Of a stretch of 33,196 nucleotides of DNA, positions 2,597-32,087 are shown in pieces; the stretch's first letter is position 1, and every line of letters begins with the position of its first letter. A program made the position numbers and the translations under genes. Source of the stretch: a virus; IMG/VR virus record IMGVR_UViG_3300042868_008267, positions 1 to 33,196 of that record. One strand, 5' to 3'. The notes under the pieces are model-generated. The model made no database searches and was not told the origin of the DNA. It saw only the letters and a program-made list of their open reading frames with translations.

Positions 2597-2718
2597 CACC
2601 GTGGACATTTCGGCCCCAGTCCGGTTGACAGATCGCAGAAACGAGGCAAATTTGGATTGCGCCTCTACCGTTCGGGCTTGTTCGCGGGGGTGGCATCGGT
2701 CCTCGTATCGCATAGGGT

Positions 2719-2738
2719 ACGGGGATCGCCCGTTTTTT
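2719..2738 (+). terminator. Short hairpin with T-run after terL
   Basis: ACGGG (2719-2723) can pair with CCCGT (2729-2733) around a five-base loop, and five more T residues follow to 2738. A second, longer imperfect stem (TCCTCGTAT at 2700-2708 with GTACGGGGA at 2717-2725, including G-T pairs) is an alternative fold. Together they could form an attenuator or terminator between packaging and head genes. The stem is short, so this is tentative. Confidence 0.4.
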
Positions 2739-2752
2739 GACTCCCGCGTTGG
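2737..2752 (+). repeat. Start-associated repeat, copy 1
   Basis: TTGACTCCCGCGTTGG. First of five copies of the exact 15-mer TTGACTCCCGCGTTG. It begins within the T-run of the preceding hairpin and ends four bases before the ATG of the gpW-like gene at 2756. No -10 box lies at sigma-70 spacing, and the motif is not complementary to the usual 16S anti-Shine-Dalgarno, so its role is unknown. Confidence 0.85.
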
Positions 2753-2755
2753 CAT

Positions 2756-3022
2756 ATGGCACGTCCGACGGGTTGTTTCCTTATTCTTTCCCAGGCCCGA
2801 ATCGAGGCCCTGGTCGATAAGGCATACGAAAACCTGGCGTCGGGCCGCGTTCTTATGAGTTATTCTGACTCCGGGACGAGCGTATCGAAAGATTGGCCCA
2901 TGACGGTTGAGCAGGTCCTGGTGGAGTGTCGCTATGCTCTACAGATTAAGGACCCCCAACAATATGGGGGTATCGACCGCGTCCGCGTCTATAACGGCCT
3001 TTGGAATTTCCGGGGCCTTTAA
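2756..3022 (+). CDS. gpW-like head-tail joining protein
   Basis: Likely neck protein that closes the filled head or joins the portal and tail. The 88-residue protein has the helix-strand-helix layout of the lambda gpW family: RIEALVDKAYENLASG, then a short strand region with VLMSYSDSGTSVS, then MTVEQVLVECRYALQ. gpW is typically about 68 residues, so this copy has extensions at both ends. Its position between terminase large subunit and portal is the lambda position. The ATG sits four bases after repeat copy 1. The only CATG found in the window lies in this gene at 2899-2902. An out-of-frame open stretch covers 2601-2858 but is treated as a shadow. Confidence 0.7.
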   Translation: MARPTGCFLILSQARIEALVDKAYENLASGRVLMSYSDSGTSVSKDWPMTVEQVLVECRYALQIKDPQQYGGIDRVRVYNGLWNFRGL

Positions 3023-3030
3023 TTTGATCT

Positions 3031-4617
3031 ATGGCCCCCCAAAAGCAGGAATCCCTAAAGAAAAAGGTCCGCAAGGCGGTCCGCGACGTTAAGGAGCTTG
3101 CCAAGCGCAAGGGCCTAAAGGCCAAGGCGTTTTCCGGCGGCGGCGGGGGATCGGGTATCTTTTCCCAGTTTGAGGGGGCCAAGTATAGCAATAAACGCCA
3201 ATGGGTTAATACTCCCTGGCCCGCCGACCAGAAACGGGTAATGACGTCGTTTGACCGCCAGGAGCTGACGCGGAAAATGCGTTGGTTGGCGGTTAATGCC
3301 GGTTTGGTCCGGCAACTTATCGCTGATATGGCGATGTATGCGATTGGGCCTGGTATCCGCGCCCAGGCCGCAACCGGGGACGCCAAGATCGACGAGCTTT
3401 ACGACGCCTATTTTTTCGATTGGGCGAACAAACCCTGCGAAATCACCGGGCGCTTTAATTTTTGGGAAGCGCAGGCGCTAATGAGCCGCCGGGTCGATAT
3501 CGACGGCGAGATATTTATCCTTAAGACGTATAGCTCGTCCGGCGCTCCCCTTCTCCAGCTTATCGAATCCCACCGCGTTGGGGCCTCCTCGACGGCCCAG
3601 GGCCAGGTTGATGGGGTTTACGACGGGATAATTTTTAATAAATTCGGGGCCGTGGTCGGGTATAATGTTATCCGATCCGACGGTACGAACCGGAATGTTT
3701 CGGCCAATTCGATCCTCCACGTTTACCACCCCGAAAGCGCCTCCGGCGCACGGGCTTACAGTCCGCTACAACATAGTATCAATAATTTGATTGATATTCT
3801 GGAGGTCCTATCCCTCGAAAAGGTTGCGATGAAAGTACAGGCCGACGTGGTCCGTACGATCACCCGCGAAAACCCGCAATTCGACGGGTCCTCCGCGGAT
3901 TTCGAGGCATTCGGTATGCGTCCCCAGGATTACCCTAACCAGGTTTACCAGAATCCGGAGGAGGTCGGCGCATTTATTGGCGGCAAAACCGTTGCCTTGG
4001 CCCCCGGCGAGGACCTGAAAATGGTCGAATCAAACCGCCCCGGTCCTAATACGGTGGCGGCCATTGAATATCTCGAAAAGGATAGCTGCGCCGGGTTCCT
4101 CCCTTGGGCATTTTCGGGCGATCCCACTAAATCGGGGGGCAGCGCAACCCGCCTGGTCGTCGCTAAAACCGAGCGCACGGTGAATTCCCGTCAGGATATG
4201 CTTGTCCATAGGGCGCTTAATCCAATTTATGGTTATGTGATCGGTACGGCCATTGCCCGCGGCGAGCTTCCGGCAAACGATAATTGGACAAAGGTTAACT
4301 GGGTAACGCCCCGCCGTATCTCGGTGGACGCGGGCCGCGAGGCCGCCGCGAACCTGGCCGACATTACGACCGGCCTTAAGACCCTCTCGGACCATTACGC
4401 CGAGCTTGGGATGGACTACCGCCAGGAGGTCCGACGCCGAGCTGCCGACGCCAAGCTTATTAACGATACCGCGGACGAATTCGGCGTACCCCCGTCGTCG
4501 ATCTTTGCCCCGGCCAATACTCCCCTTGCCGACATTAACCAGGCCGCCGCCTCCGGTGGTAAGCCCGGCCCCGGCGCAACCGATTTCCAACCCCTTTTTG
4601 AAGGGGAACCCTCCTAA
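3031..4617 (+). CDS. Portal protein, lambda gpB family
   Basis: Dodecameric portal ring at the unique head vertex, the channel for DNA packaging and exit. The 528 residues match lambda-family portals. A basic N-terminus (KKKVRKAVRDVKELAKRKG) precedes the conserved core with RKMRWLAVNAGLVRQLI and a GPGIR segment, a ring-forming middle around HVYHPESASGARAYSPL (residues about 230-245), and WVTPRR near residue 430. It lies between the gpW-like connector and the prohead protease as in lambda. The start ATG has the TATG context and no Shine-Dalgarno. Confidence 0.92.
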   Translation: MAPQKQESLKKKVRKAVRDVKELAKRKGLKAKAFSGGGGGSGIFSQFEGAKYSNKRQWVNTPWPADQKRVMTSFDRQELTRKMRWLAVNAGLVRQLIADMAMYAIGPGIRAQAATGDAKIDELYDAYFFDWANKPCEITGRFNFWEAQALMSRRVDIDGEIFILKTYSSSGAPLLQLIESHRVGASSTAQGQVDGVYDGIIFNKFGAVVGYNVIRSDGTNRNVSANSILHVYHPESASGARAYSPLQHSINNLIDILEVLSLEKVAMKVQADVVRTITRENPQFDGSSADFEAFGMRPQDYPNQVYQNPEEVGAFIGGKTVALAPGEDLKMVESNRPGPNTVAAIEYLEKDSCAGFLPWAFSGDPTKSGGSATRLVVAKTERTVNSRQDMLVHRALNPIYGYVIGTAIARGELPANDNWTKVNWVTPRRISVDAGREAAANLADITTGLKTLSDHYAELGMDYRQEVRRRAADAKLINDTADEFGVPPSSIFAPANTPLADINQAAASGGKPGPGATDFQPLFEGEPS

Positions 4618-4628
4618 TTCCTACTTTT

Positions 4629-6080
4629 ATGCGTAATCTCTCAAACGATATCCGGGCCAATCGCCCCGTCCTTATCCAACCGACCATTGCCAAGGCATTC
4701 CTTGAGCGATGCGCCGACATTAAGCTCCCCCTGGGGGCCAAGGCGTCCGATATGTCGGATATGCTGGCCGCGATCTTTGGCGCTAAATCGGCGCTCGAAA
4801 AATTCCCGCCCTTTGCGATTGTCCCCATTAAGGGGGTTATCGGTCGTAACCTTTCCGACCTGGAGGCTGCTTGCGGCGCTTGCGATCTGGAGGCCGTGGA
4901 GGAAATGCTGGAGGACGCGGAACGGGACCCCTCGATTACGACCATTATCCTGGACGTCGATTCCCCCGGCGGGTCCGCGGTCGGCGTGCCGGAGCTTGCC
5001 AAACGGGTCCGCGAATGCGGTAAGCGCACGGTTTCCTTTACCTCCGGCGATTGCTGCTCGGCGGCCTATTGGATTGCTTCCCAGGCGTCGGAATTCTACG
5101 CAACCCCCTCGTCCACCGTGGCAAACGTCGGTTGTTATATCGTGTTTAACGATATGTCGGCGGCCTATGCCCAGGAGGGCGTCGCGGTTGACGTTATCCG
5201 ATCCGGCAATCTGAAGGGCGCAGGAACGCCGGGGACCTCCCTGTCCAAGGAGCAGCGGGACGATCTCTTGGCCGGTGTCCTGGAGATTGCCGATAACTTT
5301 AAGGCCGACGTTAAGCTCGTCCGCGAATTCGTCCAGGACGCGGATATGGCGGGCCAATGCTTCTCCGGGACCAAGGCCGCCGAAAAGGGTTTCGTTACCG
5401 CCCTAACCAATGGTTTCGACGAGCTTATGCAAAGCCTGGACGCCGAGGTCGCGGCGCAGATCGAGGCCGACGAGGCAAACGACGCCCGCGCCAATGTCGG
5501 CGGCGAGGCCGAGGAATCCGACGAGGACGAGGGTATGGGCCGTATGGCTGCCGCCCGCGCCCTTAAGGGTATCCCTGGCGGTATCCGCGCCCTTATGGCA
5601 AAGGCCGAGAAATCCCCGGACGAGGAGGAAAAGGACGGTTCCGAACCGATGCCCAAGAAGGGAAAGAAGTACGGTAAGGCCAATTCCGACGAGGAGGACG
5701 ACGAGGACGAAACCCCGTCCGATCCCATTACCGACGACGACGAGGAAAAGGATAAGCCGGAATCCCAGGACGACGAGGAAAAGCCCGAATCCGAGGAGGA
5801 TAAGGACGAACCCAAGGCCGAGGACGAGGAGGAGGACGCCGATCAGCAGCCCGAATCCGAGGACGAGGAAAAGGAACCCAAGGCCGAGGATAAGGACGAG
5901 GAAAAGCCCGAATCCGAGGACGAGGACGATAAGGAACCCAAGGCCGAGGACCAGGATAAGGACGACGCCGACGCCAAGGAAAAGGCCGAGGAGGAATCCG
6001 ATACCGGGGATAAGGCCGTCGAAACCGACGAGGAGCCGGAAAAGAAGGGCGTTCGCAACCGATCCCGCGGCCTCGCTTGA
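4629..6080 (+). CDS. Prohead protease (S49/SppA family) with acidic tail
   Basis: Head maturation protease of the lambda gpC type. The SppA/ClpP fold covers residues about 60-275. It shows DVDSPGGSAVGVPELAKRV (about 109-127), the likely nucleophile Ser144 in CCSAAYWIAS and the likely catalytic Lys196 in GNLKGAGTPG. From about residue 330 to 475 the chain becomes extremely acidic and repetitive (cycles of KPESED and EPKAED), unlike most S49 prohead proteases. In lambda the C-terminal part of gpC overlaps the Nu3 scaffold; here the acidic tail may play a comparable scaffold or capsid-binding role (inference). The TGA stop lies inside repeat copy 2. Confidence 0.9.
   Translation: MRNLSNDIRANRPVLIQPTIAKAFLERCADIKLPLGAKASDMSDMLAAIFGAKSALEKFPPFAIVPIKGVIGRNLSDLEAACGACDLEAVEEMLEDAERDPSITTIILDVDSPGGSAVGVPELAKRVRECGKRTVSFTSGDCCSAAYWIASQASEFYATPSSTVANVGCYIVFNDMSAAYAQEGVAVDVIRSGNLKGAGTPGTSLSKEQRDDLLAGVLEIADNFKADVKLVREFVQDADMAGQCFSGTKAAEKGFVTALTNGFDELMQSLDAEVAAQIEADEANDARANVGGEAEESDEDEGMGRMAAARALKGIPGGIRALMAKAEKSPDEEEKDGSEPMPKKGKKYGKANSDEEDDEDETPSDPITDDDEEKDKPESQDDEEKPESEEDKDEPKAEDEEEDADQQPESEDEEKEPKAEDKDEEKPESEDEDDKEPKAEDQDKDDADAKEKAEEESDTGDKAVETDEEPEKKGVRNRSRGLA
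5680..6050 (+). repeat. Acidic low-complexity coding repeat
   Basis: GA-rich imperfect tandem repeats inside the protease gene encode Asp/Glu/Lys/Pro/Ser tracts. Units such as CCCGAATCCGAGGA and CCCAAGGCCGAGGA recur with small changes. All three forward frames, and much of the minus strand, stay open through the repeat as a composition effect, so long overlapping ORFs here are not evidence of extra genes. The region is prone to slippage and length variation. Confidence 0.8.
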
Positions 6081-6092
6081 CTCCCGCGTTGG
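6077..6092 (+). repeat. Start-associated repeat, copy 2
   Basis: TTGACTCCCGCGTTGG. The TGA within the motif is the stop codon of the protease gene, and the next start (6109) lies 17 bases beyond the 15-mer. Here the motif carries a gene stop, while copies 1, 3 and 5 are fully intergenic, which argues that the base sequence itself is being conserved. Confidence 0.85.
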
Positions 6093-6108
6093 ACTAATTC
6101 GTAACCGT

Positions 6109-6570
6109 ATGACCCTTGAACAATCCCTTAAGGCCCTAAAGGCCGCATTCGGCGCTAAATCTACCGAGGCCGAATCTGCGTCCAAGGAGCTTTCGGCGGC
6201 CAAGGCCAAGGTTAGCGCCCAGGCTGCGGAAATTTCCGATCTCTCGGAAAAGCTTGCCGCCGTCGCCGGTGTCGTCGCCGAACGGGAAACCCTGGCCGCC
6301 AAGGTCGAGGAGCTTACCAAGGCGCTTGCCGCGGCTAACGAGCTTAAGGCCCAGGCCGTCTCGCAGATCGAAACCGTCGGCAAGGTCGCTGCCAAGATTG
6401 CCTCGTCGGTCGGCGTTGCCCCCGCGGAAATCTCCCCCGCCGATAACGTCGTCGCCAAGAGTAACGACGAAATTTGGTCCGAATATTGCGGCATCGCAAA
6501 TCCGGCCGAAAAGGTCGCCTTTTACAATAAGCACCGGGCCGCCATCGTGGCGCACCTGGGCATTAAGTAA
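6109..6570 (+). CDS. Coiled-coil head protein, scaffold candidate
   Basis: A 153-residue, Ala/Glu/Lys-rich protein. Residues about 1-95 form a long predicted coiled coil (for example LEQSLKALKAAFGAKSTEAE and VEELTKALAAANELKAQAV), followed by a small C-terminal domain containing NDEIWSEYCGIANPAEKVAF. A helical coil between protease and capsid genes is the usual place and shape of a scaffolding protein, so that role is inferred. The frame is open far upstream only because of the acidic repeat; ATG 6109 is chosen because it follows the protease stop and repeat copy 2. It could instead be a head decoration or accessory protein. Confidence 0.6.
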   Translation: MTLEQSLKALKAAFGAKSTEAESASKELSAAKAKVSAQAAEISDLSEKLAAVAGVVAERETLAAKVEELTKALAAANELKAQAVSQIETVGKVAAKIASSVGVAPAEISPADNVVAKSNDEIWSEYCGIANPAEKVAFYNKHRAAIVAHLGIK

Positions 6571-6601
6571 CCCTTTCCCCCTAATCTCACCCTAAACTCA
6601 T

Positions 6602-7519
6602 ATGTCCAACTCCGTCCTTAATCAGGGTTTGGCCCCCCAGTTTGTCGCCGCCGAAACGCTGCGTACCCTGGTCCCGGTCCTCGCCCCTCTCAATAAGATC
6701 GTCACGACCGATTTCAGCGCCTACGTCGCCGAAAAAGGCCAGGTCGTCCATACCCGTTACGCCGACGCCTTTACGGCCTCGACGTACAACCGCGCTACCG
6801 GTTTCGTCGCCGAGGACGCCGTCTCTAACGACGTTGCGATCACTCTCTCGGACCATAACTACGTTATGACGTCGTTTACCGATACCGAGGTCGCCACGAT
6901 CTCCCTCGATATGCTGCGCCGCGTGTTTATCGCCCCGATGGCTAACGCCACGGTCACCAGCATTTTCGACGGCGTGATCGGCCAGACGACCGCGGCCGCC
7001 TACCCTGGTACGCCCTTCTATTCCGGTACCAAAGCCAATTTCAACCGCCTCGCGGTTGCCGGTGGCGCTACCAATATGACCAAGGCGAACCTCCCGTTTG
7101 CCGACCGTTCCCTGCTCCTTACCCCCGACGCATTCGGCCAGCTCCTCCAGGACCCTTCCGTTGCCCAGTATCTCTCCATCGGTGATACCTCGGTTATCCG
7201 CGACGGTAAGGTCGGTCGCCTCCACGGTATCGACATTTACGAGGTTAATACCTGGAGCGCCGCCCCCGTTGGTGAGCACCTTAACGGTATCGCCTCCTGC
7301 CGCGAGGGCCACGTGATCGTTACCCGCGTCCCGGCTGCCCCGACCACCGGCGGTGGCGAGCAGCTCACCGTCCAGGACCCGGATTCCGGTTTCGCCTTCT
7401 CCCTGCGTAGCTGGTACGATTGGACCAAGGGCCTGTCGAATATCTCGGCCTCCTGGATTATCGGCCAGTCCGTTGGTAACCCCAACGCCGCCCTCCGCGT
7501 CGTTATCTCGGACCTCTAA
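6602..7519 (+). CDS. Major capsid protein (HK97-fold type)
   Basis: A 305-residue protein placed directly after the protease and scaffold genes and followed by a strong terminator, as expected for the most abundant head protein. The sequence has typical coat features: an N-terminal segment with AETLRTLVPVLAPLNKIV, a hydrophobic and Gly/Ala-rich middle, LLLTPDAFGQLLQDP, GRLHGIDIYEVN near residues 203-214, and a C-terminus with DPDSGFAFSLRSWYDW. It looks closest to P22-coat-like/HK97-fold proteins that accept Dam- or protease-dependent maturation poorly resolved by eye, so the subfamily is left open. The leader is pyrimidine-rich with a TATG start. Confidence 0.85.
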   Translation: MSNSVLNQGLAPQFVAAETLRTLVPVLAPLNKIVTTDFSAYVAEKGQVVHTRYADAFTASTYNRATGFVAEDAVSNDVAITLSDHNYVMTSFTDTEVATISLDMLRRVFIAPMANATVTSIFDGVIGQTTAAAYPGTPFYSGTKANFNRLAVAGGATNMTKANLPFADRSLLLTPDAFGQLLQDPSVAQYLSIGDTSVIRDGKVGRLHGIDIYEVNTWSAAPVGEHLNGIASCREGHVIVTRVPAAPTTGGGEQLTVQDPDSGFAFSLRSWYDWTKGLSNISASWIIGQSVGNPNAALRVVISDL

Positions 7520-7547
7520 AGCTCATCTGCCAAGCGCAGAAGGAGTT

Positions 7548-7577
7548 AAGGCCCCCTTTCGAGGGGGTCTTTTTTTT
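7548..7577 (+). terminator. Strong intrinsic terminator after capsid gene
   Basis: AAGGCCCCCT (7548-7557) pairs with AGGGGGTCTT (7562-7571) around a TTCG tetraloop (7558-7561), including one G-T pair, and runs into eight T residues ending at 7577. This is the clearest rho-independent terminator in the window. It lies 28 bases after the capsid gene stop and should limit read-through from the head operon into the connector genes. Confidence 0.88.
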
Positions 7578-7604
7578 GGGTAGGGTCGTAAACCCCTCCC
7601 GGTG

Positions 7605-7621
7605 GCCCGTGGCGGGCTTTT
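7605..7621 (+). terminator. Second small hairpin with T4 before connector genes
   Basis: GCCCG (7605-7609) pairs with CGGGC (7613-7617) around TGG, followed by TTTT (7618-7621). The last two T residues are also the first two bases of repeat copy 3. It may be a back-up terminator or part of the control element itself. Confidence 0.45.
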
Positions 7622-7635
7622 GACTCCCGCGTTGC
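7620..7635 (+). repeat. Start-associated repeat, copy 3
   Basis: TTGACTCCCGCGTTGC; identical to the other copies over the first 15 bases. It follows the capsid terminator and a second hairpin and ends a few bases before ATG 7639. Since transcription should largely stop upstream, some form of new initiation or antitermination is needed here, which makes this copy the best argument for a transcriptional role. Confidence 0.85.
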
Positions 7636-7638
7636 CAT

Positions 7639-7980
7639 ATGGGCCTTTACGACGCCGAATGGGCCGCCGACGCGGCCTCAATCCTTGCGGAAATCCCCAA
7701 GGCCGTAACCGTCCGTCGCGGATCGGGCGCTGCGACCGCCTTTAACGTCCTAATGGGGCCGCCGATGGTCCAGCAAAACCTCGAAACCGGGGGTTTCCTT
7801 AATACAACCGCGTTCGACGTTAAGTTTTTAAAGGCCGACGCCGATCTCCATCCTGGGGTAATCGTATACGGTAACCTGGTGAGCTATAACGGCCTTAATT
7901 ACCGAATCGTCGCTATTAACGACCGCCCCCCGTCGGCCTGGGTTATCGTCCGCGTCGAGGGCGCAGCGGGTCCGGCATAA
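7639..7980 (+). CDS. Head-tail connector protein, putative
   Basis: A 113-residue protein with no motif I recognise with certainty. It has an N-terminal helical part (WAADAASILAEIPKAVTVRR), then a strand-rich part with VLMGPPMVQQNLETG and a C-terminal stretch around GVIVYGNLVSYNGLNYRIVAI. This small beta-barrel-like pattern is common in head-completion or stopper proteins encoded just after the capsid gene. It is the first gene after the capsid terminator and repeat copy 3, and its TAA overlaps the next ATG (TAATG). The functional name is by position and shape only. Confidence 0.5.
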   Translation: MGLYDAEWAADAASILAEIPKAVTVRRGSGAATAFNVLMGPPMVQQNLETGGFLNTTAFDVKFLKADADLHPGVIVYGNLVSYNGLNYRIVAINDRPPSAWVIVRVEGAAGPA

Positions 7981-8876
7981 TGGCGACCACGGCCCGAAAA
8001 AACGTCCAGGTAGACGCCTCGGCGCTAATCGACCATTTGCACGATTACGCCTTGGTTATGGGCAAAAGCTTGGGCGAGGTCGTCCGCGACCAGGCGGCGC
8101 TATTCTGCCAGGATATGATCGCTTACTCCCGGCCCTTTTCCGGCAAAAAGCCCGGATCGGGGGCGACCGGCCAGGCCAAGACGACGGGTAACGATAACGT
8201 CAAAAATTCAATCCGTAAGATTTTCCGGCCCGTCGATCTGGCGACCAAGGAGCAAATTGCCGCGGTCGGTAAGTACGAGGTTTTTAAAATGTGGACCAAG
8301 CGCAAGGGCGAGAGGGTCCAGGGGAAAGGTAAGGCCATTCGCTGGCAAGCTTTCCAACAGAAATACGGCGGCGGCCCTTCTATGGGGTTCGTCGATTCCG
8401 GCGACCTTTCGACCCTGGGGCGCATCCACCGATCCCTGCGTACCGATAACGGACGCGGTTCCCTCAATTCCACGGCCCGAAACTCTAAACAACCCTTTGC
8501 AATCGTCGCCAAGGATCGGGATATTGAGCGATATATCCGGCAGCAGCAAATCGACGTTGGTACGCTAAAATCGGCGTATTACTTTGCCGGTGTCCAGATT
8601 AAGGGGAAAATCAAGGCCCCGGCCTGGGCGAAACAACCGGGCGGTCGGGAAAATGCCATTGCCCAGGATAAGATCGGCCAACCAATGAAACCAGAGGTTA
8701 CCGTCGGTAACCAGATTGGCGGCAAGGCCGGTAACGATAAATTCGTTAAAATCGCCATTTCCCATCGGGCGTACGCAATGCGGGTTAAAATGGCCGCCGA
8801 GCTGAATAAGCAAAAGGTCCCCCTTTGGGTTGCATCGGCCCGCGGCCAAACGACCAGGACGGCCAAATATTTCTGA
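7980..8876 (+). CDS. Minor head/tail protein of unknown function
   Basis: A 298-residue basic protein, translationally coupled to the preceding gene by a TAATG overlap. It has many Lys and Gln residues, a segment rich in Gly/Lys (residues about 57-72), and no transmembrane segments. A C-terminal part with FVKIAISHRAYAMRVKMAAE recalls HK97-gp10-like neck proteins, though it is longer than that family (about 130-180 residues). Position between the connector and a tail-terminator candidate supports a structural neck or completion role. Function is not established. Confidence 0.5.
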   Translation: MATTARKNVQVDASALIDHLHDYALVMGKSLGEVVRDQAALFCQDMIAYSRPFSGKKPGSGATGQAKTTGNDNVKNSIRKIFRPVDLATKEQIAAVGKYEVFKMWTKRKGERVQGKGKAIRWQAFQQKYGGGPSMGFVDSGDLSTLGRIHRSLRTDNGRGSLNSTARNSKQPFAIVAKDRDIERYIRQQQIDVGTLKSAYYFAGVQIKGKIKAPAWAKQPGGRENAIAQDKIGQPMKPEVTVGNQIGGKAGNDKFVKIAISHRAYAMRVKMAAELNKQKVPLWVASARGQTTRTAKYF

Positions 8877-8880
8877 TCTT

Positions 8881-9318
8881 ATGCCTACCCTCTACGGAAT
8901 CCGTACCATTGCCGAACAATCGGCGCTTGCCTGGTTTACTCAAAACGCCGCGTACCTCCCCGGCGTCGAGCTGAATGCGGGCCAAACGGACGAAATCCGG
9001 GCCGTCCCGATTGTTATTTTGCACGCCGAAAGCGCCCGCGCTCACCCCGATCTTGGCGGCAACCCCCTAGGCAATTTCGAGATTACCCTTAAAATCTACG
9101 TCTATTCGTCCGCGGACGATTCGACCTTGGCGCAGCACCGGGAACGGGTCGAGGCCGTGCAGGGGATTATGCAGGACGCCGCGGGCCTTTCTGCAGCTTG
9201 GACCCAGGGGACCTTATATGCCTCTTGGGTCGTCTCGGACGACGAGGGGGTCGCAGATCGCCGGTACGGTAATATCGTCGAATATACCCTCGTCGCGGCC
9301 TATCCGGCCCAAACTTGA
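8881..9318 (+). CDS. Tail terminator-like protein, putative
   Basis: A 145-residue protein with the layout of tail-terminator/neck proteins (lambda gpU-like size and position): an N-terminal helix (TIAEQSALAWFTQNA), a strand-rich middle ending ITLKIYVYS, a helix with LAQHRERVEAVQGIMQDAA, and a C-terminal strand in NIVEYTLVAAYP. ATG 8881 is chosen because it follows the upstream stop directly and has the TATG context; a longer in-frame version would overlap the previous gene. Its TGA stop is part of repeat copy 4. Confidence 0.5.
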   Translation: MPTLYGIRTIAEQSALAWFTQNAAYLPGVELNAGQTDEIRAVPIVILHAESARAHPDLGGNPLGNFEITLKIYVYSSADDSTLAQHRERVEAVQGIMQDAAGLSAAWTQGTLYASWVVSDDEGVADRRYGNIVEYTLVAAYPAQT

Positions 9319-9330
9319 CTCCCGCGTTGA
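9315..9330 (+). repeat. Start-associated repeat, copy 4
   Basis: TTGACTCCCGCGTTGA. As with copy 2, the TGA inside the motif is the stop of the preceding gene (9316-9318). The following tail gene starts at 9351, the longest motif-to-start distance of the five copies (21 bases). Confidence 0.85.
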
Positions 9331-9350
9331 TTCAATAACCGACCGACCTT

Positions 9351-9689
9351 ATGGCCCTCCCTCAAACTTTTGGCGTTTCCCACGTTTTCGGCGTCCTGGA
9401 ATCTGGCATTTTCGTTACGATTCAAACGGACTCCGTCGATCAGAAACCGGCGCTCGACGTTGAGGTTATGGACGAAACCGGCGTGGTCATTACCGACCGC
9501 CTGGACGACCAGCGCCTCGAAACCACGGTTTCCGGCGTCCTTAAGACGGGTTCGTCGGTCCCGACCGCGGGCGACCAATTCAATTACGACGGGGTTAATT
9601 ACATTATCAAGGGCGTTACTAACGACGGTTCCAATAACGCCTTTCGCAAGGTTACCCTTAAGCTGGTCAAGTACCAGGAGATCGCCTAA
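9351..9689 (+). CDS. Tail protein, unknown (possible minor tube component)
   Basis: A 112-residue, strand-rich protein with alternating hydrophobic and polar residues (for example IFVTIQTDSVDQKPALDVEV and FRKVTLKLVKYQEIA at the C-terminus). It lies between the terminator candidate and the presumed tape-measure region, where tail tube or tail-completion proteins are encoded. It is short for a major tail protein (usually 150-250 residues). A second candidate for the tube protein is the 286-residue product at 11544. The function is inferred from position only. Confidence 0.45.
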   Translation: MALPQTFGVSHVFGVLESGIFVTIQTDSVDQKPALDVEVMDETGVVITDRLDDQRLETTVSGVLKTGSSVPTAGDQFNYDGVNYIIKGVTNDGSNNAFRKVTLKLVKYQEIA

Positions 9690-9707
9690 CCCGCGTAACC
9701 GACGCCC

Positions 9708-10304
9708 GTGGCCTCCCGTTGGACACAGGCCGCGACAATCCTGCGCCCCGAAATCGAGGTTTGCGGGGTTCGTCTATTGCCATTCTGCCTCCGGCATCGG
9801 GTTGCGCTGGAGGCAATCGAAAGCCCGATCTTGGATACGTCCAAGCCCCTTACCGCAAAGCATATGATCGCCGCGGTCCGTATCCTCTCGACGCACGACC
9901 TGGAACATATCCGGCGACCCCATACCCTCCGCGAATCCTGGTGGATTGGCCGGTTGACGTTTTCCAATACTGTCCTTTCCCAGGAGGCCGCAAAGCTGCT
10001 GGCATACCTAGAGGCGCAATCCCTTTGGCCGCGTTTCTGGACCAAGGAGGAGAGCGAGGGCCGATCTGGCGGGGTCCCTTGGCCCTTGGCGATTGTCGCC
10101 TCCCTTACGCGGAACGGTTGCACGCTAACCGAGGCGTGGACGATGCCAGAGGCCGAGGCCGTTTGGCTGCACGTCGCTAATACCATCGCCTCCGGGGCAA
10201 AGGTCGAAATCGTATCCGACGTCGAATGGACCGCAATGGAGCGATATAAGGCCGAGGAGGCCGCCAAAGCTGCCGCCGCGAATCCAGGAGATCGCAAAAA
10301 CTAA
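9708..10304 (+). CDS. Tail assembly chaperone-like protein, putative
   Basis: A 198-residue helical protein just upstream of the tape-measure candidate, the usual place of tail assembly chaperones (lambda gpG/GT). It starts at GTG 9708; no ATG near this point extends the same frame. Visible segments are a leucine-rich N-terminal half, a WPLAIVASLTRNG stretch, and an Ala/Lys-rich C-terminus (about residues 178-192). No slippery sequence with a frameshift extension was seen between this gene and the next, so the gpG-GT frameshift appears to be missing. The assignment is contextual. Confidence 0.45.
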   Translation: MASRWTQAATILRPEIEVCGVRLLPFCLRHRVALEAIESPILDTSKPLTAKHMIAAVRILSTHDLEHIRRPHTLRESWWIGRLTFSNTVLSQEAAKLLAYLEAQSLWPRFWTKEESEGRSGGVPWPLAIVASLTRNGCTLTEAWTMPEAEAVWLHVANTIASGAKVEIVSDVEWTAMERYKAEEAAKAAAANPGDRKN

Positions 10305-10306
10305 TT

Positions 10307-11542
10307 ATGGCCGACGACGTAAAAGTTAAATTTGGCGGGGATTTCACCGACGTTGCCAAGGGGGCGGGCGAGGCGGTCAACCGCGCCGGGTCCTCCCTAA
10401 CGGCCTGGTTTAACGATTTTAGGAAATCGACCGAGGCGTCGATCCTCTCGTCCCTGGCGCTTGCCAACATTTTTTCCAATTTCGTAAAGGGGGCCGCCGA
10501 AACCCTCCAGTATTTCCGCGAAATGGATTTGGCCCTTAAACGGTTCGGGGGATCGGGGGACGCCCAATTTCAACAGCTCGCCAAATATGGCAAGGAGGTA
10601 GGGGTATCTATGGAAACCGTCGCCCGGACGACGAATCATTTTAATAAGGTCCGCAGCGAGGCCGCCAAGGGTAACCAAACCTATATCTCCATTCTTAAGC
10701 AATTCGGGTTTACCCAAAAGGAGATCAATTCCGGCAATATCTCGTCGATTGAGGTCCTTGGGCGCTTGGCCGACGCATACGATAAAACGGGTTACGAGGG
10801 CCTGGTCGGCGAACGTGCGATGAATCTATTTGGTATCCGCGGTAAGGAGCTTTCGGCGATCTTTAAGAATGGCCGGGAATCCCTAGAGGCGTTTACCAAA
10901 TCTATGGCGACTATGTCGCGGGAATCCATTACCAAGCTGTCGGAAACCCAGGCGAAAATCGAATATATGCAGCGCAAGGCAAAGGAGACGTTTTACCAGG
11001 GGCCGTTAGAAGGATACTCTAATTACCTTGTTCGCCAGCAAGCGGTATCGGAAATTACCCGATCTAGGGATCGGGCATTTGAAACTAACTTTTTCGGATT
11101 CCGGACGGATAAAACCTCCGGCGGGGGAACCATTGCCCAACAGGCAAAATCGGACGCGGGCCTAATTGTTAGCCAATTTGAGGGGTTTATTCCTGGCATT
11201 AAAGAGGCGGCAGCAATCGCCAGTAATAAGGGAAGCTGGGCGGGCCAGGACGAGAAGATCGTTAAGTATATGGAGGAGCTAGGTAAATCCCTTAACCTTT
11301 ACGTTAAGCAGCTGGAATCCTCACCAAAGGACAAAAAGGCGGGCCTCGAAATCCCCTTGGTCAAGGAATTGCTAACCTCCTCCTCCCTCCAGGCCATCGG
11401 GGGCGGGGACATTTCCTCGGTGCTTTCCGGCACGGTCCAGGCCAGTATGCTAACCGCAATGCAGGAAACCGCGGCCAATACCGGCAAGCTCGCCGCAGAA
11501 TCCAGCCAACCCGATCCCAACCCGCCCAACGTCGCAAAATAA
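10307..11542 (+). CDS. Tape measure protein candidate, short
   Basis: A 411-residue mainly helical protein. It has a hydrophobic N-terminal region (SILSSLALANIFSNFVKGAA, residues 44-63) followed by domains resembling the start of tape-measure proteins (ALKRFGGSGDAQFQQLAKYG, GNISSIEVLGRLADAYDKTG, ERAMNLFGIRGKEL). The RLADAYDKTG...GIRGKEL pattern is typical of tape-measure N-terminal domains. No other gene here is long enough for the role. If correct, it would set a short tail, roughly 60 nm by the usual ruler of about 0.15 nm per residue. It could alternatively be a tail-needle or injection protein. Confidence 0.65.
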   Translation: MADDVKVKFGGDFTDVAKGAGEAVNRAGSSLTAWFNDFRKSTEASILSSLALANIFSNFVKGAAETLQYFREMDLALKRFGGSGDAQFQQLAKYGKEVGVSMETVARTTNHFNKVRSEAAKGNQTYISILKQFGFTQKEINSGNISSIEVLGRLADAYDKTGYEGLVGERAMNLFGIRGKELSAIFKNGRESLEAFTKSMATMSRESITKLSETQAKIEYMQRKAKETFYQGPLEGYSNYLVRQQAVSEITRSRDRAFETNFFGFRTDKTSGGGTIAQQAKSDAGLIVSQFEGFIPGIKEAAAIASNKGSWAGQDEKIVKYMEELGKSLNLYVKQLESSPKDKKAGLEIPLVKELLTSSSLQAIGGGDISSVLSGTVQASMLTAMQETAANTGKLAAESSQPDPNPPNVAK

Positions 11543-11543
11543 T

Positions 11544-12404
11544 ATGCCCGCCCCATCTAATAACCGGAAAAGCTATGGTAACGACCTCCAGGCCCCAATG
11601 CCGCAGCCGGTCGGGACCGTGTCGGTTGATGGGTTCGGCTTGGCCCAAGCGCAATTAACCTATACGGTCGATTCGTCGGACGTAAATATTGGCGGGGTAA
11701 TCGCCCAGTTTTCCGAGGGGGACAATTACCCTTATGATCTCGGCTTTACGATGAAATCGTACAAAGTTACGACCTCCTTTGGTAAGGGCGGGGTCGCTAA
11801 TATCGTCGTCGATTTTATGGGCATTCGGTCCTTTAATGGATATACGAAACCCCAGGTTACTGGGATTGCCACGTCCACGGCGCAGCCAATCGAGGCCCAT
11901 CCTAATTTTACCAAGGTAACGTCCGAGGCCGCCGGTGGCGTCGTCCTGGCGGGATACCCCCCGTCGAATCTGGTTAACGACAATAAACCTATTTTCGTCC
12001 AATCGACCGATCCGTACGCTACTTGGACGTTCCGCGGGTTCGGGCTGCGTACCGACGGCGAGGTAAACATTAAGGCCGGTATCCGGCAATATCTAGCCCC
12101 CTTGGCGACCCTCCGCGGCCAGATTTTCCTCGGCCCTGGGGCGTCTAGCTCGGCCTCTACTTTCCTCCAATCCGTCGGCAAGCGCCTAACCAATGCCGAC
12201 GTTAGCAAGCTCGTACAACCCGCCAACCTGGCCGGGGCGCTGGAATCCGAGGACGAAAATTACGCCCTCCTTTCGGCGGCTAACGCGGAATGTATCGGGG
12301 ACCCCGACAATCTGGCGGCCATTAAAGTTACTTACGATATTATGGTCGGCGGCGAGATCGGTTGGGATAAAGACATTTACGGCCAAGCGCCGTCGATTCT
12401 CTAA
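11544..12404 (+). CDS. Tail structural protein (tube or distal tail), putative
   Basis: A 286-residue beta-rich protein starting two bases after the tape-measure stop codon. Strand-like stretches include YTVDSSDVNIGGVIAQFSEG, FTMKSYKVTTSFGKGGVANI and ATWTFRGFGLRTDGEVNIKA; the C-terminus is IKVTYDIMVGGEIGWDKDIY. The size and strand content would fit either a major tail tube protein displaced downstream of the tape measure or a distal-tail/baseplate protein. No diagnostic motif is visible. Confidence 0.45.
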   Translation: MPAPSNNRKSYGNDLQAPMPQPVGTVSVDGFGLAQAQLTYTVDSSDVNIGGVIAQFSEGDNYPYDLGFTMKSYKVTTSFGKGGVANIVVDFMGIRSFNGYTKPQVTGIATSTAQPIEAHPNFTKVTSEAAGGVVLAGYPPSNLVNDNKPIFVQSTDPYATWTFRGFGLRTDGEVNIKAGIRQYLAPLATLRGQIFLGPGASSSASTFLQSVGKRLTNADVSKLVQPANLAGALESEDENYALLSAANAECIGDPDNLAAIKVTYDIMVGGEIGWDKDIYGQAPSIL

Positions 12405-12405
12405 T

Positions 12406-13125
12406 ATGAATGACGCCGGTTTTAATGGGACCGGGTCCCGGTTTAACTCTCGTTTCGAGGCCGGTTCGCCGATCTACGCAAAGCAGCTTAACGATCTGGC
12501 GACGGGCATTCAATCGGCCTTGCCCCAACCTTACGTTGGGTATGGTCCGTCGGTTTCCTTTACCCCTGGAGGCGGGATTATCGCGGGGGGTATGGAGGAT
12601 ACGCCGGTCGCCCCCGCCAAGGCATATTGCCCGTTAGCAATCTATAACCTCCGGAAATCCACCGCCGAGGGGACCGCGGGTAACTATTATATCAATATCG
12701 CCCCAGGGGCGGTTAATAACTTGGTCGTTAAATCGGACGACGGCGTCGTGCTAACGGACGACCCTCCCCCGGATATCCAAGTTTTTTCGGACGGTATTAC
12801 CGAGGCGGGCGTGGTTAATTACATCTACGTCCGTTGCGGCAACAGTCCGGCGGGCGGGGCGGGCGGGGCGCAATACCCCTCCCGATCTGGAGAAGGATAC
12901 CCGTCGATCCGCGTAAGCGCCGAACAGGATAAGGTAGACGATTCGACGTATTCTTGGATTTTGATTGGGGTCGTAACCGGCCAAAAGGTCCTTATCCCCG
13001 ATACGGAACCCCCTGAATACCAGGAAATCCTTAATATCCAGCAGCTGATCGGTTGTAACTCCCTATGGACGGAAAGGTTTGTTTGCGGGGATAACCCGGT
13101 CGAATACTGGTGGAGCGCCGTTTGA
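12406..13125 (+). CDS. Tail tip or baseplate protein, unknown
   Basis: A 239-residue protein with an N-terminus rich in Asn/Gly/Ser/Phe (MNDAGFNGTGSRFNSRFEAG) and several Pro/Gly-rich turns (SFTPGGGIIAGGMEDTP). The C-terminal part contains VNYIYVRCGNSPAGGAGGAQ and SYSWILIGVVTGQKVLIPD-like strands. It sits in an unbroken run of tail genes with an overlap-free TAATATG junction upstream. Its composition suggests an extended adaptor in the tail tip. No family recognised. Confidence 0.45.
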   Translation: MNDAGFNGTGSRFNSRFEAGSPIYAKQLNDLATGIQSALPQPYVGYGPSVSFTPGGGIIAGGMEDTPVAPAKAYCPLAIYNLRKSTAEGTAGNYYINIAPGAVNNLVVKSDDGVVLTDDPPPDIQVFSDGITEAGVVNYIYVRCGNSPAGGAGGAQYPSRSGEGYPSIRVSAEQDKVDDSTYSWILIGVVTGQKVLIPDTEPPEYQEILNIQQLIGCNSLWTERFVCGDNPVEYWWSAV

Positions 13126-13126
13126 T

Positions 13127-14110
13127 ATGGCATTGCCCAAGCGAAAGGGGGCCGTTTATGCCTGGTTGGCCGACCCGTCCGTTTACCCCCAAGGTACGCA
13201 GCGATTAGACGATACCACAATCGCGGACGAGCAGCTGGTCGTCCCGCCTTACGATCCCCAACCGCGACCACCGGCCCAAGGGACGTTTTTCTCGTATAAG
13301 GAATATTTCCCAGATTACCCGCCAGGGTTTACGGTAAAAGTAAAAGACGCAATAATGGGGGGCGAGGTCCAATCGGGAAATATCATCCAATTTCGGGCGT
13401 CGTCCGAGCTAGAAATAAAGTATCCGACCGGGGCCGTGGTAAATTACAACCCTACCCCTCCCCCGCTAGGCCCAGGAGATCAACCCCCCGACCCTAACGG
13501 TACGACCGGCATTTACGAGGAAAGCCGCGACCTTGGCGTATTCCCTGCCTTGCCGCGGTACGTTACCGACGATCCCTTTAGCTTTTCTTCCGGCGCAAAT
13601 TACGATTGGTACGCACCGCGGGATTTTGTACCGACAAAGGACGAGCGCCTCGACGCAAATTCGTTTGGTTTCGACGGGTTCGGGATTTTCGGTTCCTGGG
13701 ACGTTAGCGTTGAAAATCTAATGTCGCGGGTCCTCAACCTTGAGACAAACGAATACGAGGAATACCCATACGCCCAGGCGACGACCGACGTAAAGGTTAC
13801 GACCAAGATTAAGGCGATTAACGATTGGGATATTTGTTGCTGGAACGACGGGACAGTCGTTAGCGGGAAGATCGCAATCTGGACCCTGGACGCCACGACC
13901 AAGACGAACCCCGAAACCGGGACGGGTTGGTTTGGTATGTTTGTCGATACCGGCACGACCTTTGCGCCGCATACCGAGCTGGATTGGTCGGTTACAATCG
14001 AGGAGGGGTTCGACGGCCCGGAAATCGAAATCCCCAAGGTCGAGGGTAAAGTATCCTTTATTAACGATATTTGGATTACCTCGGTTACCCCTCCCCCCGG
14101 CCCCGCATAG
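13127..14110 (+). CDS. Tail tip or fibre-associated protein, unknown
   Basis: A 327-residue protein with many aromatic residues, Pro and Asp, and few Lys runs. Segments such as YFPDYPPGFTVKVKDAIMGG, PGDQPPDPNGTTGIYEESRD and TGTGWFGMFVDTGTTFAPHT alternate loops and strands. It looks like an exposed tail-tip protein and may bind the fibre encoded downstream. ATG 13127 is two bases after the upstream TGA and carries the TATG context; an in-frame ATG at 13079 would overlap the previous gene. No motif defines a function. Confidence 0.45.
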   Translation: MALPKRKGAVYAWLADPSVYPQGTQRLDDTTIADEQLVVPPYDPQPRPPAQGTFFSYKEYFPDYPPGFTVKVKDAIMGGEVQSGNIIQFRASSELEIKYPTGAVVNYNPTPPPLGPGDQPPDPNGTTGIYEESRDLGVFPALPRYVTDDPFSFSSGANYDWYAPRDFVPTKDERLDANSFGFDGFGIFGSWDVSVENLMSRVLNLETNEYEEYPYAQATTDVKVTTKIKAINDWDICCWNDGTVVSGKIAIWTLDATTKTNPETGTGWFGMFVDTGTTFAPHTELDWSVTIEEGFDGPEIEIPKVEGKVSFINDIWITSVTPPPGPA

Positions 14111-14115
14111 GGGGT

Positions 14116-14131
14116 TTGACTCCCGCGTTGG
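14116..14131 (+). repeat. Start-associated repeat, copy 5
   Basis: TTGACTCCCGCGTTGG, in the gap between the tail-tip gene and the fibre-adaptor gene, with ATG 14135 beginning four bases after it. CCCC (14101-14104) and GGGG (14111-14114) just upstream could form a weak hairpin. This is the last copy; none was seen in the lysis, early, recombination or replication regions. Confidence 0.85.
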
Positions 14132-14134
14132 TCT

Positions 14135-14449
14135 ATGGCGTCCCCGACGGTATCCTGGAAACGCGGCAGCACATTTGCGGCCACGGTAACCTATACCCCA
14201 GGCGCAGGGGACCCCTCCAGCTTGGACGGGGTAACCGTTGAATGTTCCGTTATGGACCATCGGGAGGTCCGATACCCCCTTATCGTCTCGATCCTGCCGG
14301 GGAATCTCTCGTTTAACATCCTTTACCCTGGCGATACGTCCGAATGGGCCGCCGGGACCGCGGCGCTGGATTACCGATGCCTGGAGAATGGGGTCGTTTT
14401 CTACTCCACGACGGCCCGGTTTACAATCGACCCGCAAATTACCCTTTAA
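14135..14449 (+). CDS. Fibre-adaptor-like beta-sandwich protein
   Basis: A 104-residue protein with a single Ig-like beta-sandwich pattern: KRGSTFAATVTYTPGAGDPS, GVTVECSVMDHREVRYPLIV, NLSFNILYPGDTSEWAAGTA, LDYRCLENGVVFYSTTARFT. The order 'RGsTF, gxtVex, T..WaaGta.lDy.., G.v..s...fti' resembles the N-terminal domain of upper-baseplate (BppU-like) proteins in siphophages that connect receptor-binding fibres. It is followed immediately by the fibre gene (TAAATG junction), which supports that role. The family link is from pattern memory. Confidence 0.6.
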   Translation: MASPTVSWKRGSTFAATVTYTPGAGDPSSLDGVTVECSVMDHREVRYPLIVSILPGNLSFNILYPGDTSEWAAGTAALDYRCLENGVVFYSTTARFTIDPQITL

Positions 14450-16531
14450 ATGGCAACCCTTACGACGACCATTCGTTATTCCGAACCCGCCGGTTCGATC
14501 ATTACGTCCTTGGGCGTCCCAGGTCCTGCGGGTCCTGGCGTGCCGGTCGGCGGGGCTGCGGGCCAGATTTTGGCGAAAATCGACGCCCAAAATTACAATA
14601 CCCATTGGGTTACCCCCCAAGACGATTCCGCGATTTGGGGCCAGATTTCCGGGGACCTTGCCAATCAGCTCGATCTCTCCTCGGCGCTATCCCTTAAACT
14701 GGACGCCTCGACGGCGGCCTCGACGTACCTTACCCAATCCGGCGCCGCCTCGACGTACCAAACCCTTTCGGGTATGTCGGCCTACCTTTCCAAGGCTGGA
14801 AACCTAGCGGGCCTTACCGATCTAGATACGGCCCGGAATAACCTCAACCTTGGGGTCCTTAATTCCCCGATTTTTGCCGCCCTTACCATCCAGGGGTCCG
14901 GCGCTAATGCCGGGCAGCTTGGGGCGACGTTCCTATCCCTAACCCATTCGGTTTACGGCCAGTTTATGATTTCGCCGTCGTCGGGCATTACGTTCCCCGA
15001 TTCGACGGTCCAAGTAACGGCCTATACCGGCGATAACGAGGTATCCTGGGGCGAAATTAACGGCCAGATCGTAAACCAGGTCGATCTCCAAAGCGCCCTC
15101 GATTCCAAATACCCCGCGTCCAACCCCTCCGGGTTTATCGACGCATCGGCCCTTGCTCCCTACCTTACCAGCGCCGACGCCGCCTCGACGTACGCGGTAA
15201 CCGCCCGCGGCCTCCCCGCCGGAGGGATTACGGCCCAGGTATTAAGCAAGGCCAGCAATTCCGATTATTCCTCGACCTGGACGACGATTATCCCTGGAGA
15301 TCGTTACCTTACCAGCTCGACGACGCCCAATACCATCAATAACCAGAATAAGACGTTTATCGTCGGTACGGGCCTATCCTATACGACGCAGCAGGACGCG
15401 GTTATTTCTTACGACACCGCAAACCATATGCACGTCCGGGTCGTATCGTACAACCCGACGACCGGCCAGCTCGACGTAAACGTCCTATCCCATACCGGAT
15501 CGGGAACGTATTCCTCTTGGGTCGTTAACGTCGGGGGTACGGTTCCCGCGACGACGGTTGCCTGGGGTTCAATCACCGGCACAATTTCGGCGCAGCTGGA
15601 CCTCCAGGCGGCCCTCGATACCAAGCTTAACATTACGACGGCGGCCTCGACGTACTTTACGATCTCGGCGGCTGCGGGTAAGGCCAACCTTTCGGGCGGC
15701 ACGTTCACCGGAAAGGTTAACTTTACGCCGGTCGGGGGGGCTGCGGGCCTTAACGTCGGTATCGGCGGGACAAGCGCCGGATCGACCAATAATGGCGACC
15801 TTTGGATTACGACCGGAGGAGCTAACCTAAATTTCCGCGATGGTACGGGGGCCTGGAAAGTACTTGCTGCTTTAAGTAACGGTAACGTATTTAGCGCCGT
15901 TCAAACCATTGACGTAAATAGCGCATCAACGGCCTTGCGGGTTACCCAACGCGGAGCCGGAAACGCAATCGTCGTCGAGGATAGTACGACCCCGGACGCA
16001 ACGGCGTTCGTCGTCGATCAGTTTGGCAAGGTCGGGGTCGGCGTTGCGCCGGATTCCACCGCGGCCATTAAAGTTGATTCTAACGGTATTATGTTCGGCG
16101 ACGGATCGACGCAAACCGTTGCGGGCATCGGTGACGCCCCTTCCGATGGATATACTTATGGCCGGGTAAACGGAAATTGGGGGGCGATAACCCCAGTAAC
16201 GAATAATAGCCAGTTGGATACGACGGTTACCACCAGCGCAGCCTCCAGCATTTTTGTCGGAGGAGCCTCTTTCCCTCGTAATAGCATTATCCGAATGACG
16301 TACGAGGGCGCTCCTACTGTTTATTTTGAAAGCCCAGGCACGTTTATTGCTGGAGATCGGGTTATAATCGTAAACGAGACGACCGAATATATTACCTTTA
16401 CGGCGGGCGGGGGCGTTACTCTTTTATCCGTTGCCGGTTATTATTCTGTTAATGCTGGCGGCGTCGTTACCGGAATCTATCTCGGTGGAGATACTTGGGT
16501 AATCTACGGTTGGTTAACCGATATTATCTAA
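14450..16531 (+). CDS. Tail fibre / receptor-binding protein
   Basis: A 693-residue Ala/Ser/Thr/Gly-rich fibre. A short collagen-like segment (LGVPGPAGPGVPVGG, residues about 21-35) is followed by a repeated module, 'WG.I.G....Q.DL..AL..K', beginning at Trp63, Trp200 and Trp372, twice followed closely by AASTYL/AASTYF. The C-terminal 180 residues form a different domain (SFPRNSIIRMTYEGAPTVYF and VTLLSVAGYYSVNAGGVV) and probably carry receptor binding. Codon choice in the last 600-700 bases shifts towards GGA, AGC and T/A-ending codons compared with the preceding part, consistent with exchange of the tip. No intramolecular chaperone or peptidase motif seen. Confidence 0.82.
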   Translation: MATLTTTIRYSEPAGSIITSLGVPGPAGPGVPVGGAAGQILAKIDAQNYNTHWVTPQDDSAIWGQISGDLANQLDLSSALSLKLDASTAASTYLTQSGAASTYQTLSGMSAYLSKAGNLAGLTDLDTARNNLNLGVLNSPIFAALTIQGSGANAGQLGATFLSLTHSVYGQFMISPSSGITFPDSTVQVTAYTGDNEVSWGEINGQIVNQVDLQSALDSKYPASNPSGFIDASALAPYLTSADAASTYAVTARGLPAGGITAQVLSKASNSDYSSTWTTIIPGDRYLTSSTTPNTINNQNKTFIVGTGLSYTTQQDAVISYDTANHMHVRVVSYNPTTGQLDVNVLSHTGSGTYSSWVVNVGGTVPATTVAWGSITGTISAQLDLQAALDTKLNITTAASTYFTISAAAGKANLSGGTFTGKVNFTPVGGAAGLNVGIGGTSAGSTNNGDLWITTGGANLNFRDGTGAWKVLAALSNGNVFSAVQTIDVNSASTALRVTQRGAGNAIVVEDSTTPDATAFVVDQFGKVGVGVAPDSTAAIKVDSNGIMFGDGSTQTVAGIGDAPSDGYTYGRVNGNWGAITPVTNNSQLDTTVTTSAASSIFVGGASFPRNSIIRMTYEGAPTVYFESPGTFIAGDRVIIVNETTEYITFTAGGGVTLLSVAGYYSVNAGGVVTGIYLGGDTWVIYGWLTDII

Positions 16532-17467: not shown

Positions 17468-17735
17468 AGTTATCGTCCGCAAGCTAGGCCGCGAGGGGGC
17501 CTGGGGCCAATGCCATTACGACCCCGCCTCCCCGACGGTGGAGATTGATCCCCGCCTTGGGGCCAAACGTCGGTTGGAGGTCCTCGTCCACGAGGCCGTC
17601 CATCTATTTTTCGGCCCCGATCTGCCGGAGGCCAAGGTAGACGCAGCGGGTAAGTATATCCGCGACGTCCTATGGGCGCAGAATTACCGCCAGGTCCTCC
17701 TTGAGCCTAACGCCAAACCTCCCCGCATTACTTGA
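17448..17735 (+). CDS. Small HExxH putative metallopeptidase
   Basis: A 95-residue protein with a zinc-metallopeptidase signature HEAVH (His48, Glu49, His52) in LEVLVHEAVHLFF, preceded by two beta strands (KVIVRKLG and TVEIDPRL). Glu61 or Asp65 could be a third ligand. There is no signal peptide, so it should act in the cytoplasm unless released by the holin. Small HExxH proteins of this kind occur in phage genomes with unknown substrates. It lies between the lipoprotein and holin-like genes, overlapping the first by 20 bases and the second through a TTGA junction, so it is co-translated with lysis genes. Confidence 0.65.
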   Translation: MSLRRPKVIVRKLGREGAWGQCHYDPASPTVEIDPRLGAKRRLEVLVHEAVHLFFGPDLPEAKVDAAGKYIRDVLWAQNYRQVLLEPNAKPPRIT

Positions 17736-25934: not shown

Positions 25935-26134
25935 GCGAACCTATTGAATACGGGAGGCCCTGGTGGGAAGTAATGAAGGAGTTAAAGGCCGATAACGACC
26001 GCCTTAAGGCCGAGGTCGAGAGGCTCCGCAAGGCAGGAGATTCGATGGCTAAAGTTATAGATGATGACTATTTAGACACGCTCCAAGTTTGGATTGATTG
26101 GAACGCCGCCAAGGAGGGGAAACCCAATGCCTGA
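25931..26134 (+). CDS. Short coiled-coil protein (67 aa), GTG start
   Basis: A 67-residue protein with GTG start at 25931 overlapping the previous TGA. The N-terminal half is a coil (VMKELKADNDRLKAEVERLR). The stretch from about 26045 to 26095 (residues about 39-55, MAKVIDDDYLDTLQVWIDWN) uses codons GAT, TTA, ATA and AAA that are rare in this genome and looks AT-rich against its neighbours. This could be a recently acquired or recombined end. Function unknown. Confidence 0.55.
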   Translation: MSEPIEYGRPWWEVMKELKADNDRLKAEVERLRKAGDSMAKVIDDDYLDTLQVWIDWNAAKEGKPNA

Positions 26135-32055: not shown

Positions 32056-32087
32056 CTCACACCCCCCATTTACCGGGTCGAACCCTA

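Follow-up and report, generated by a model that had tools for sequence, protein, structure and literature searches.

A five-fold sequence element before head and tail genes in a phage group from metagenomes and its probable role as a compact late promoter

Introduction

The 15-mer TTGACTCCCGCGTTG recurs on one strand of a viral DNA of 33.2 kb, the whole of which was analysed here and is called the window, and each copy is followed by a head or tail gene. What does such a sequence do, and what reads it? A first, sequence-only reading had offered a late promoter, a repressor site, an antitermination site and an RNA-processing site as its possible roles. After comparison with relatives we favour the late promoter, while the repressor and RNA-processing sites rank as rivals.

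Results

Five copies at five gene junctions

An exact search of both strands gave exactly five copies of TTGACTCCCGCGTTG, all on the + strand and confined to the structural-gene (head/tail) half of the window, as the sequence-only reading had claimed; a sixth exact copy is absent from either strand. The extent assigned to the set, 2737–14131, is correct at its start, but the last copy ends at 14130. With up to three mismatches the sole extra match lies within a gene (17545), and six matches of this quality occurred in none of 100 shuffles. The copies do lie shortly upstream of start codons, the distances from the 15-mer to the next ATG being 4, 17, 4, 21 and 4 nt in the order J1 to J5 (Table 1). 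Likewise, it is true that two copies provide the stop codon of the upstream gene, namely the TGA in copies 2 (S49 protease gene) and 4 (gene 8881). The names TerL, gpW, S49 and tail fibre were read from the translations and are not database matches. The protease gene (window 5500–6080) ends in a long acidic, D/E/K-rich low-complexity tail that differs between relatives. No known RNA family was found in the window. The 15-mer is the visible core of an element of ~21 nt, and all five elements are also kept at the corresponding junctions in relatives.

Table 1. Features of the window that are relevant to the element.
Feature	Position	Strand	Description
Element J1	2736–2757, 15-mer 2737–2751	+	Exact copy; junction TerL / gpW-like gene 2756; predicted +1 A2756 = A of ATG
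Element J2	6076–6097, 15-mer 6077–6091	+	Exact copy; S49 protease / gene 6109, then MCP; predicted +1 A6096; ATG 6109
Element J3	7619–7640, 15-mer 7620–7634	+	Exact copy; MCP / gene 7639; predicted +1 A7639 = A of ATG
Element J4	9314–9335, 15-mer 9315–9329	+	Exact copy; gene 8881 / gene 9351; predicted +1 A9334; ATG 9351
Element J5	14115–14136, 15-mer 14116–14130	+	Exact copy; gene 13079 / gene 14135, then tail-fibre-like gene; predicted +1 A14135 = A of ATG
Major capsid protein (MCP) gene	6602–7519	+	Second gene of the J2 block; ~25% identity to annotated Streptomyces phage major capsid proteins
Terminator-like hairpin and U-tract running into J1	2697–2736	+	13-pair stem at 2697–2728, tail CCCGTTTTTT
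Terminator-like hairpin after MCP gene, upstream of J3	7548–7579	+	10-pair stem, tail TTTTTTGGGT
p32052, winged-helix protein, candidate reader	32085–32441	+	Model pLDDT 88, C-terminal winged helix
p32470, sigma-region-4-like HTH, candidate reader	32470–33165	+	Structure comparison; model pLDDT 61 (low confidence)

The element in relatives

No near match to the window was found among 50,697 phage records. A scan of viral contigs for the exact 15-mer yielded 38 stretches, including 19 loci on 14 contigs with homologous genes, and in these 14 contigs the 15-mer occupies the same five junctions even at roughly 55–65% protein identity. By our own estimate, the exact matches in contigs lacking homologous genes are probably due to chance, given the size of the collection. 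Independently of the motif, relatives were gathered by their MCP (77 loci), and a scan with an MCP alignment added more distant ones; their MCP identity is 52–100%. The junctions covered in these relatives carry a recognisable form of the element, five per near-complete genome and always in sense. The sequence-only reading had pointed to relatives with the same gene order as the place to look for a missing motif; these were checked and the element is present.

In a pattern scan of 14 long records, a few of which end within the region, the junction sites are all in gene sense and are accompanied by scattered chance matches. The pattern TTGACTNNNNCGNNG missed genome G008, as CC replaces CG at positions 11–12 in its class, and the junctions of this genome were read separately. 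The first bases vary in some distant genomes (TGGAC in L146 and L148, GTGAC at J3 of L142–L144), and in L145 a short ORF lies between the J4 element and the homologue of gene 9351. In 13 relatives with 0.5–2.4 kb inserted after MCP, the distance from the J3 element to the homologue of gene 7639 downstream is still exactly 19 nt. Since it stays with gene 7639 across these insertions, the element belongs to the downstream gene. One record (G012, comprising L111, L112, L133 and L134) is a contig of 32,359 bases with both ends within the MCP gene, so that this genome looks complete and circular as assembled. A published description of the motif was not found in the literature searched.

Anatomy and concerted variation

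The element has the form Y-TTGACW-NNN-K-CG, five class-specific bases and NN-YA-W; the core common to all classes is TTGACW-NNN-K-CG, again followed by the class-specific bases and YA. Over 225 unique junction sequences the consensus from position 0 is Y0 T T G A C T S C C G C G T W G N N T Y A W. In this set TTGAC and C11 never vary, W21 is likewise always present, and A20 occurs in ~95%. Upstream of position 0 there is no conservation across junctions. The window belongs to class CCCGCGTTG; further classes are CCCGCGTAG, GCCGCGTTG, GCCGCCTAG, GTGGCGGAG, CCCGCGGAGG and GCCGCGTCT/TCA as well as CCCGCGCTATTT, CCTGCGTAG, NNNTCGCATAG, ACATCGCATNATAT, NNNTCGCCAGA and TGGACTGCCGCCCA.

At positions 7–17, different junctions of one genome share 0.878 identity, compared with 0.650 for junction sets reassembled from different genomes (200 permutations, maximum 0.676). 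The same junction in different genomes (0.657) is barely more alike than different junctions (0.646). On these comparisons, the element copies follow their genome, not their locus. Because the flanks are unrelated, this concerted change points to a common trans-acting reader as the simplest cause. Shared whole-genome ancestry is a part of the concerted signal, but alone it does not make different loci alike. A chance or repeat artefact is ruled out by the shuffles, the shared junctions in relatives and the concerted change. No conserved RNA fold or hairpin was found at the element across relatives. The data support the earlier suggestion that DNA or RNA, and not protein, is the level under selection.

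A trans-acting reader would also suit a repressor operator, a stoperator-like roadblock keeping the late genes silent, or a site for a different regulatory protein in an operon whose transcription begins elsewhere, and the short, asymmetric sites in one orientation at gene boundaries are in keeping with it. However, the early region and early promoters lack copies, and the exact register to the start codon described below, together with the YA-W kept at J2 and J4, would be left without explanation. We regard such a regulatory site as unlikely.

Register to the start codon

An ATG begins at position 20 in 36/39 sequences of J1, 47/50 of J3 and 25/29 of J5 (108/118 together), and several of the others have it at position 21. 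From codon 2 on, variation concentrates at third codon positions, clearly at J1 and J5 and less so at J3. Hence, translation does begin at the ATG at position 20, and the sequence behind it conceals no -10 box. At J2 and J4 the ATG lies at 30–41 in nearly all sequences, i.e. 10–21 nt past A20 and 15–26 nt from the 15-mer. Position 20 is nevertheless an A between a pyrimidine and an A or T, so YA-W is kept without an ATG there. A transcription start at A20 with a pyrimidine at -1 would be one rule that covers both types of junction.

TTGACT could be taken for a standard sigma-70 -35 box that is followed ~17 nt downstream by a -10 box, since TTGACW matches the -35 consensus at five or more of six positions, and the resulting start would be close to the ATG at J2 and J4. 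At J1, J3 and J5, however, both the -10 box and +1 would be placed within the coding sequence, and the transcript would lack the start codon. The codons there vary at their third positions, as is typical of protein-level conservation, a -10-like sequence is not among the conserved features, and positions 11–17 would be left unaccounted for. In the window, no -10 hexamer was found 16–18 nt past the -35-like box and no promoter-like site at any of the five copies, which agrees with the earlier remark that TTGAC lacks a -10 at the usual spacing. In view of the missing hexamer and the coding constraint at J1, J3 and J5, the classical promoter was rejected as very improbable.

Shine-Dalgarno cores precede 4 of 41 gene starts in the window and are rarer there than at random ATGs (17.6%), and this scarcity makes leaderless translation credible. 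Hosts that seemingly do without Shine-Dalgarno pairing would also fit a translation-initiation element comparable to the start-associated sequences (SAS) of mycobacteriophages, in which the mRNA just ahead of the AUG would attract the ribosome or a translation factor of the phage. The fixed distance of 4 nt to the AUG at J1, J3 and J5 and a GGAG in some classes are consistent with this function. Against it, the element is equally conserved, including YA-W, at J2 and J4 with the AUG 15–26 nt from the 15-mer, the classes are too variable for pairing with rRNA, and MCP, the product needed most, has no element directly before it. The probability of a translation element is consequently low in our view.

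Terminators upstream of the element

The sequence-only reading had two copies starting inside the T-runs of terminator-like hairpins. This holds fully for copy 1; for copy 3 it holds in part, as a weaker hairpin adjoins the 15-mer, but the strong terminator (7548–7571) ends ~50 nt upstream. A terminator-like site after MCP and before J3 is present in 41/52 relatives, compared with 0–1 of ~50 at control gene starts. Strict terminators were found upstream of J1 in 5/39 and of J5 in 2/29 sequences, and none upstream of J2 or J4. At J1 of the window and J3 of L088 and L093 the U-tract continues into TTGAC and ~19 nt are left before the ATG, so there is little besides the element between terminator and start codon. 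Terminators of this kind may be leaky, so we infer, rather than observe, initiation behind them.

The site between MCP and J3 also bears on a different explanation, in which long late mRNAs are cut between Y and A by a sequence-specific endoribonuclease to give leaderless mRNAs at J1, J3 and J5. A cut between a pyrimidine and A would account equally well for the YA register and the invariant A, and concerted change would then reflect the specificity of the nuclease. Yet this model needs read-through of the terminator before J3, and a cut would not require that TTGAC and a 2-bp CG be read in an RNA without any fold. No nuclease candidate was recognised, though many small genes have no assignment. 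Processing of this type seems improbable to us.

Candidate readers

p32052 and p32470 are encoded by adjacent genes before TerS. Both are present in the element-bearing genomes that cover their region, including the distant L147 and L148, and both are absent from the cultured phage P8625 (see below). In structure comparison the 41 best VIA-align rows for the C-terminal HTH of p32470 are all sigma-70 region 4 with Z up to 6.4 over ~70 aa, which is below the level taken as safe; values below 8 can mean a common arrangement only. Foldseek gave no significant match for p32470, Pfam Sigma70_r4 did not match, and no relative of solved structure was found by sequence. Region 4 of sigma-70 reads TTGAC, and this makes the likeness of p32470 attractive. 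p32052 is, according to its model, a confident but generic winged helix. As a working hypothesis, we propose p32470, which the sequence-only reading had already named, and its neighbour p32052 as candidate readers of the element.

Picking the reader by distance correlation (up to 18 genomes) was abandoned as not specific, since the values for the helicase (partial r 0.43), p26094 (0.45) and the exonuclease (0.38) equal or exceed that for p32052 (0.26). p26094 (window 26094–26381) is a small protein encoded by one of the best conserved non-structural genes, with 51–80% identity in 10 genomes; none of the Pfam and PHROG profiles tried gave it a name. Across 11 genomes, the ORFs of at least 450 aa correspond to window genes by homology, are chance frames on the reverse strand or, in one case, encode a collagen-like tail protein, and by this inventory none is a candidate RNA polymerase. 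A Pfam RNA_pol search gave no match, but its control also matched nowhere, and the search is uninformative.

The cultured outgroup P8625

The closest cultured phage by MCP (28%) and TerL (24%) is Verrucomicrobia phage P8625 (L137), which has a similar gene order. The element is absent from P8625. Its comparable junctions (5412, 9620, 10736, 15558 and 17499) have promoter-like sites of the form TTG[AC]C-N17/18-TA...., the -10 box of which ends 7 nt before the ATG in 4/5. An inverted repeat, GTATY...RATAC, overlaps these sites and occurs 8 times in the genome compared with 0.27 expected in shuffles. Before the late genes it is located at 5412–5450, 9620–9656, 10736–10774, 15558–15596 and 17499–17543 and appears to be an operator. 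For AWI59_gp13 the annotated TTG start (9620) falls on the -35 box; the true start is therefore probably the ATG ~36 nt downstream.

Judged from their sequence, the P8625 sites look like leaderless late promoters of another build. Such sites at comparable junctions support the view of the junctions as transcription starts. The relationship to P8625 further suggests that the hosts are Verrucomicrobiota. Scans of 84,980 cellular genomes with the MCP and p32470 alignments, each using just two short peptide patterns, gave no provirus or relative.

Discussion

We consider it probable that the 15-mer forms the central part of a late promoter that is compact and sequence-specific, is used by a phage factor together with the host RNA polymerase and has its +1 at A20. 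One such promoter would head each of the five structural-gene blocks. The phage-encoded factor and the host polymerase would recognise ~20 bp, with contacts to TTGACW (-19 to -14), to CG (-9 and -8) and to the class-specific bases after CG, and transcription would start at the conserved A of YA. At J1, J3 and J5 this A would be the first base of the AUG, resulting in a leaderless mRNA, and at J2 and J4 a leader of 10–21 nt would precede the AUG (in the window, 13 nt at J2 and 17 nt at J4). A compact late promoter starting at A20 would explain the location and orientation of the element, its concerted evolution, its register and the terminators. A point against it is the geometry: we know of no host holoenzyme that fits a -35-like box ~19 bp upstream of +1.

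A more specific version is a new promoter architecture built on a two-protein, sigma-like switch. p32470 would read the invariant TTGAC and p32052 the class-specific bases, the host RNA polymerase would start ~19 bp past the -35-like box to give leaderless late mRNAs, and promoter and reader would have co-evolved into at least 10 specificity classes. This version as a whole is rather unlikely.

If the element is a late promoter, it would represent the late-gene control system of a phage group that is known here only from metagenomes and whose closest cultured relative infects Verrucomicrobiota. The promoter would be unusually compact, several head and tail proteins would be made from leaderless mRNAs, and the promoter would have been re-coded at five places at once many times. 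Owing to this repeated re-coding in concert, promoter–reader co-evolution would be directly testable with natural variants.

Comparison with known systems

Stoperators of cluster A mycobacteriophages are short, asymmetric sites of 13 bp that lie at gene boundaries in a single orientation; they are bound by the phage immunity repressor and also occur outside late genes. The element resembles them in its shortness, asymmetry, orientation and placement and in having a presumed protein reader, but it keeps a fixed register to start codons and is confined to the late region. Late activators of the RinA/ArpU type are encoded before terS and act at one promoter of the packaging module. p32470 is similar in being a small HTH protein with a putative sigma-4-like fold encoded just upstream of the small terminase gene; in contrast, no sequence match was found for p32470 and five dispersed sites stand in place of one promoter. 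The predicted late promoters of P8625 lie at comparable gene junctions with a predicted start at or near the ATG, but they are of the type TTGACA-N17-TATTGG, overlap GTATY...RATAC and occur in a genome without the element, p32052 and p32470.

The SAS of cluster K mycobacteriophages, GGGATAGGAGCCC, occurs in 11–19 copies in the non-structural half, contains AGGAG and is of unknown function (PMC3203893). Like the element, it is short, asymmetric and in one orientation, lies 3–7 bp before start codons with a preference for ATG, and sometimes includes the upstream stop codon. The element differs in being restricted to the structural half, in having five copies and in being kept where the ATG is 15–26 nt away; its consensus is also different from GGGATAGGAGCCC, without the AGGAG core or any general Shine-Dalgarno core. 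SAS is the nearest look-alike by position, in the opposite half of the genome. The likeness to SAS and stoperators that had been drawn from the sequence is disfavoured by this opposite location, the lack of a general Shine-Dalgarno core and the precision with which the element is spaced from the start codon.

Late promoters of phage AR9 have the form AACA-6N-TA/G, with the last base as the start (PMC5312081). Here the likeness is that of a compact late promoter family with a pyrimidine-purine start at its end, present in many copies in sense before late genes. AR9, however, encodes its own multisubunit RNA polymerase, and no polymerase gene was seen here; moreover, the element is of other sequence, longer and present in five copies only. 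A late promoter family is a known kind, whereas the architecture of the element and its repeated re-coding in the present phage group seem to be new.
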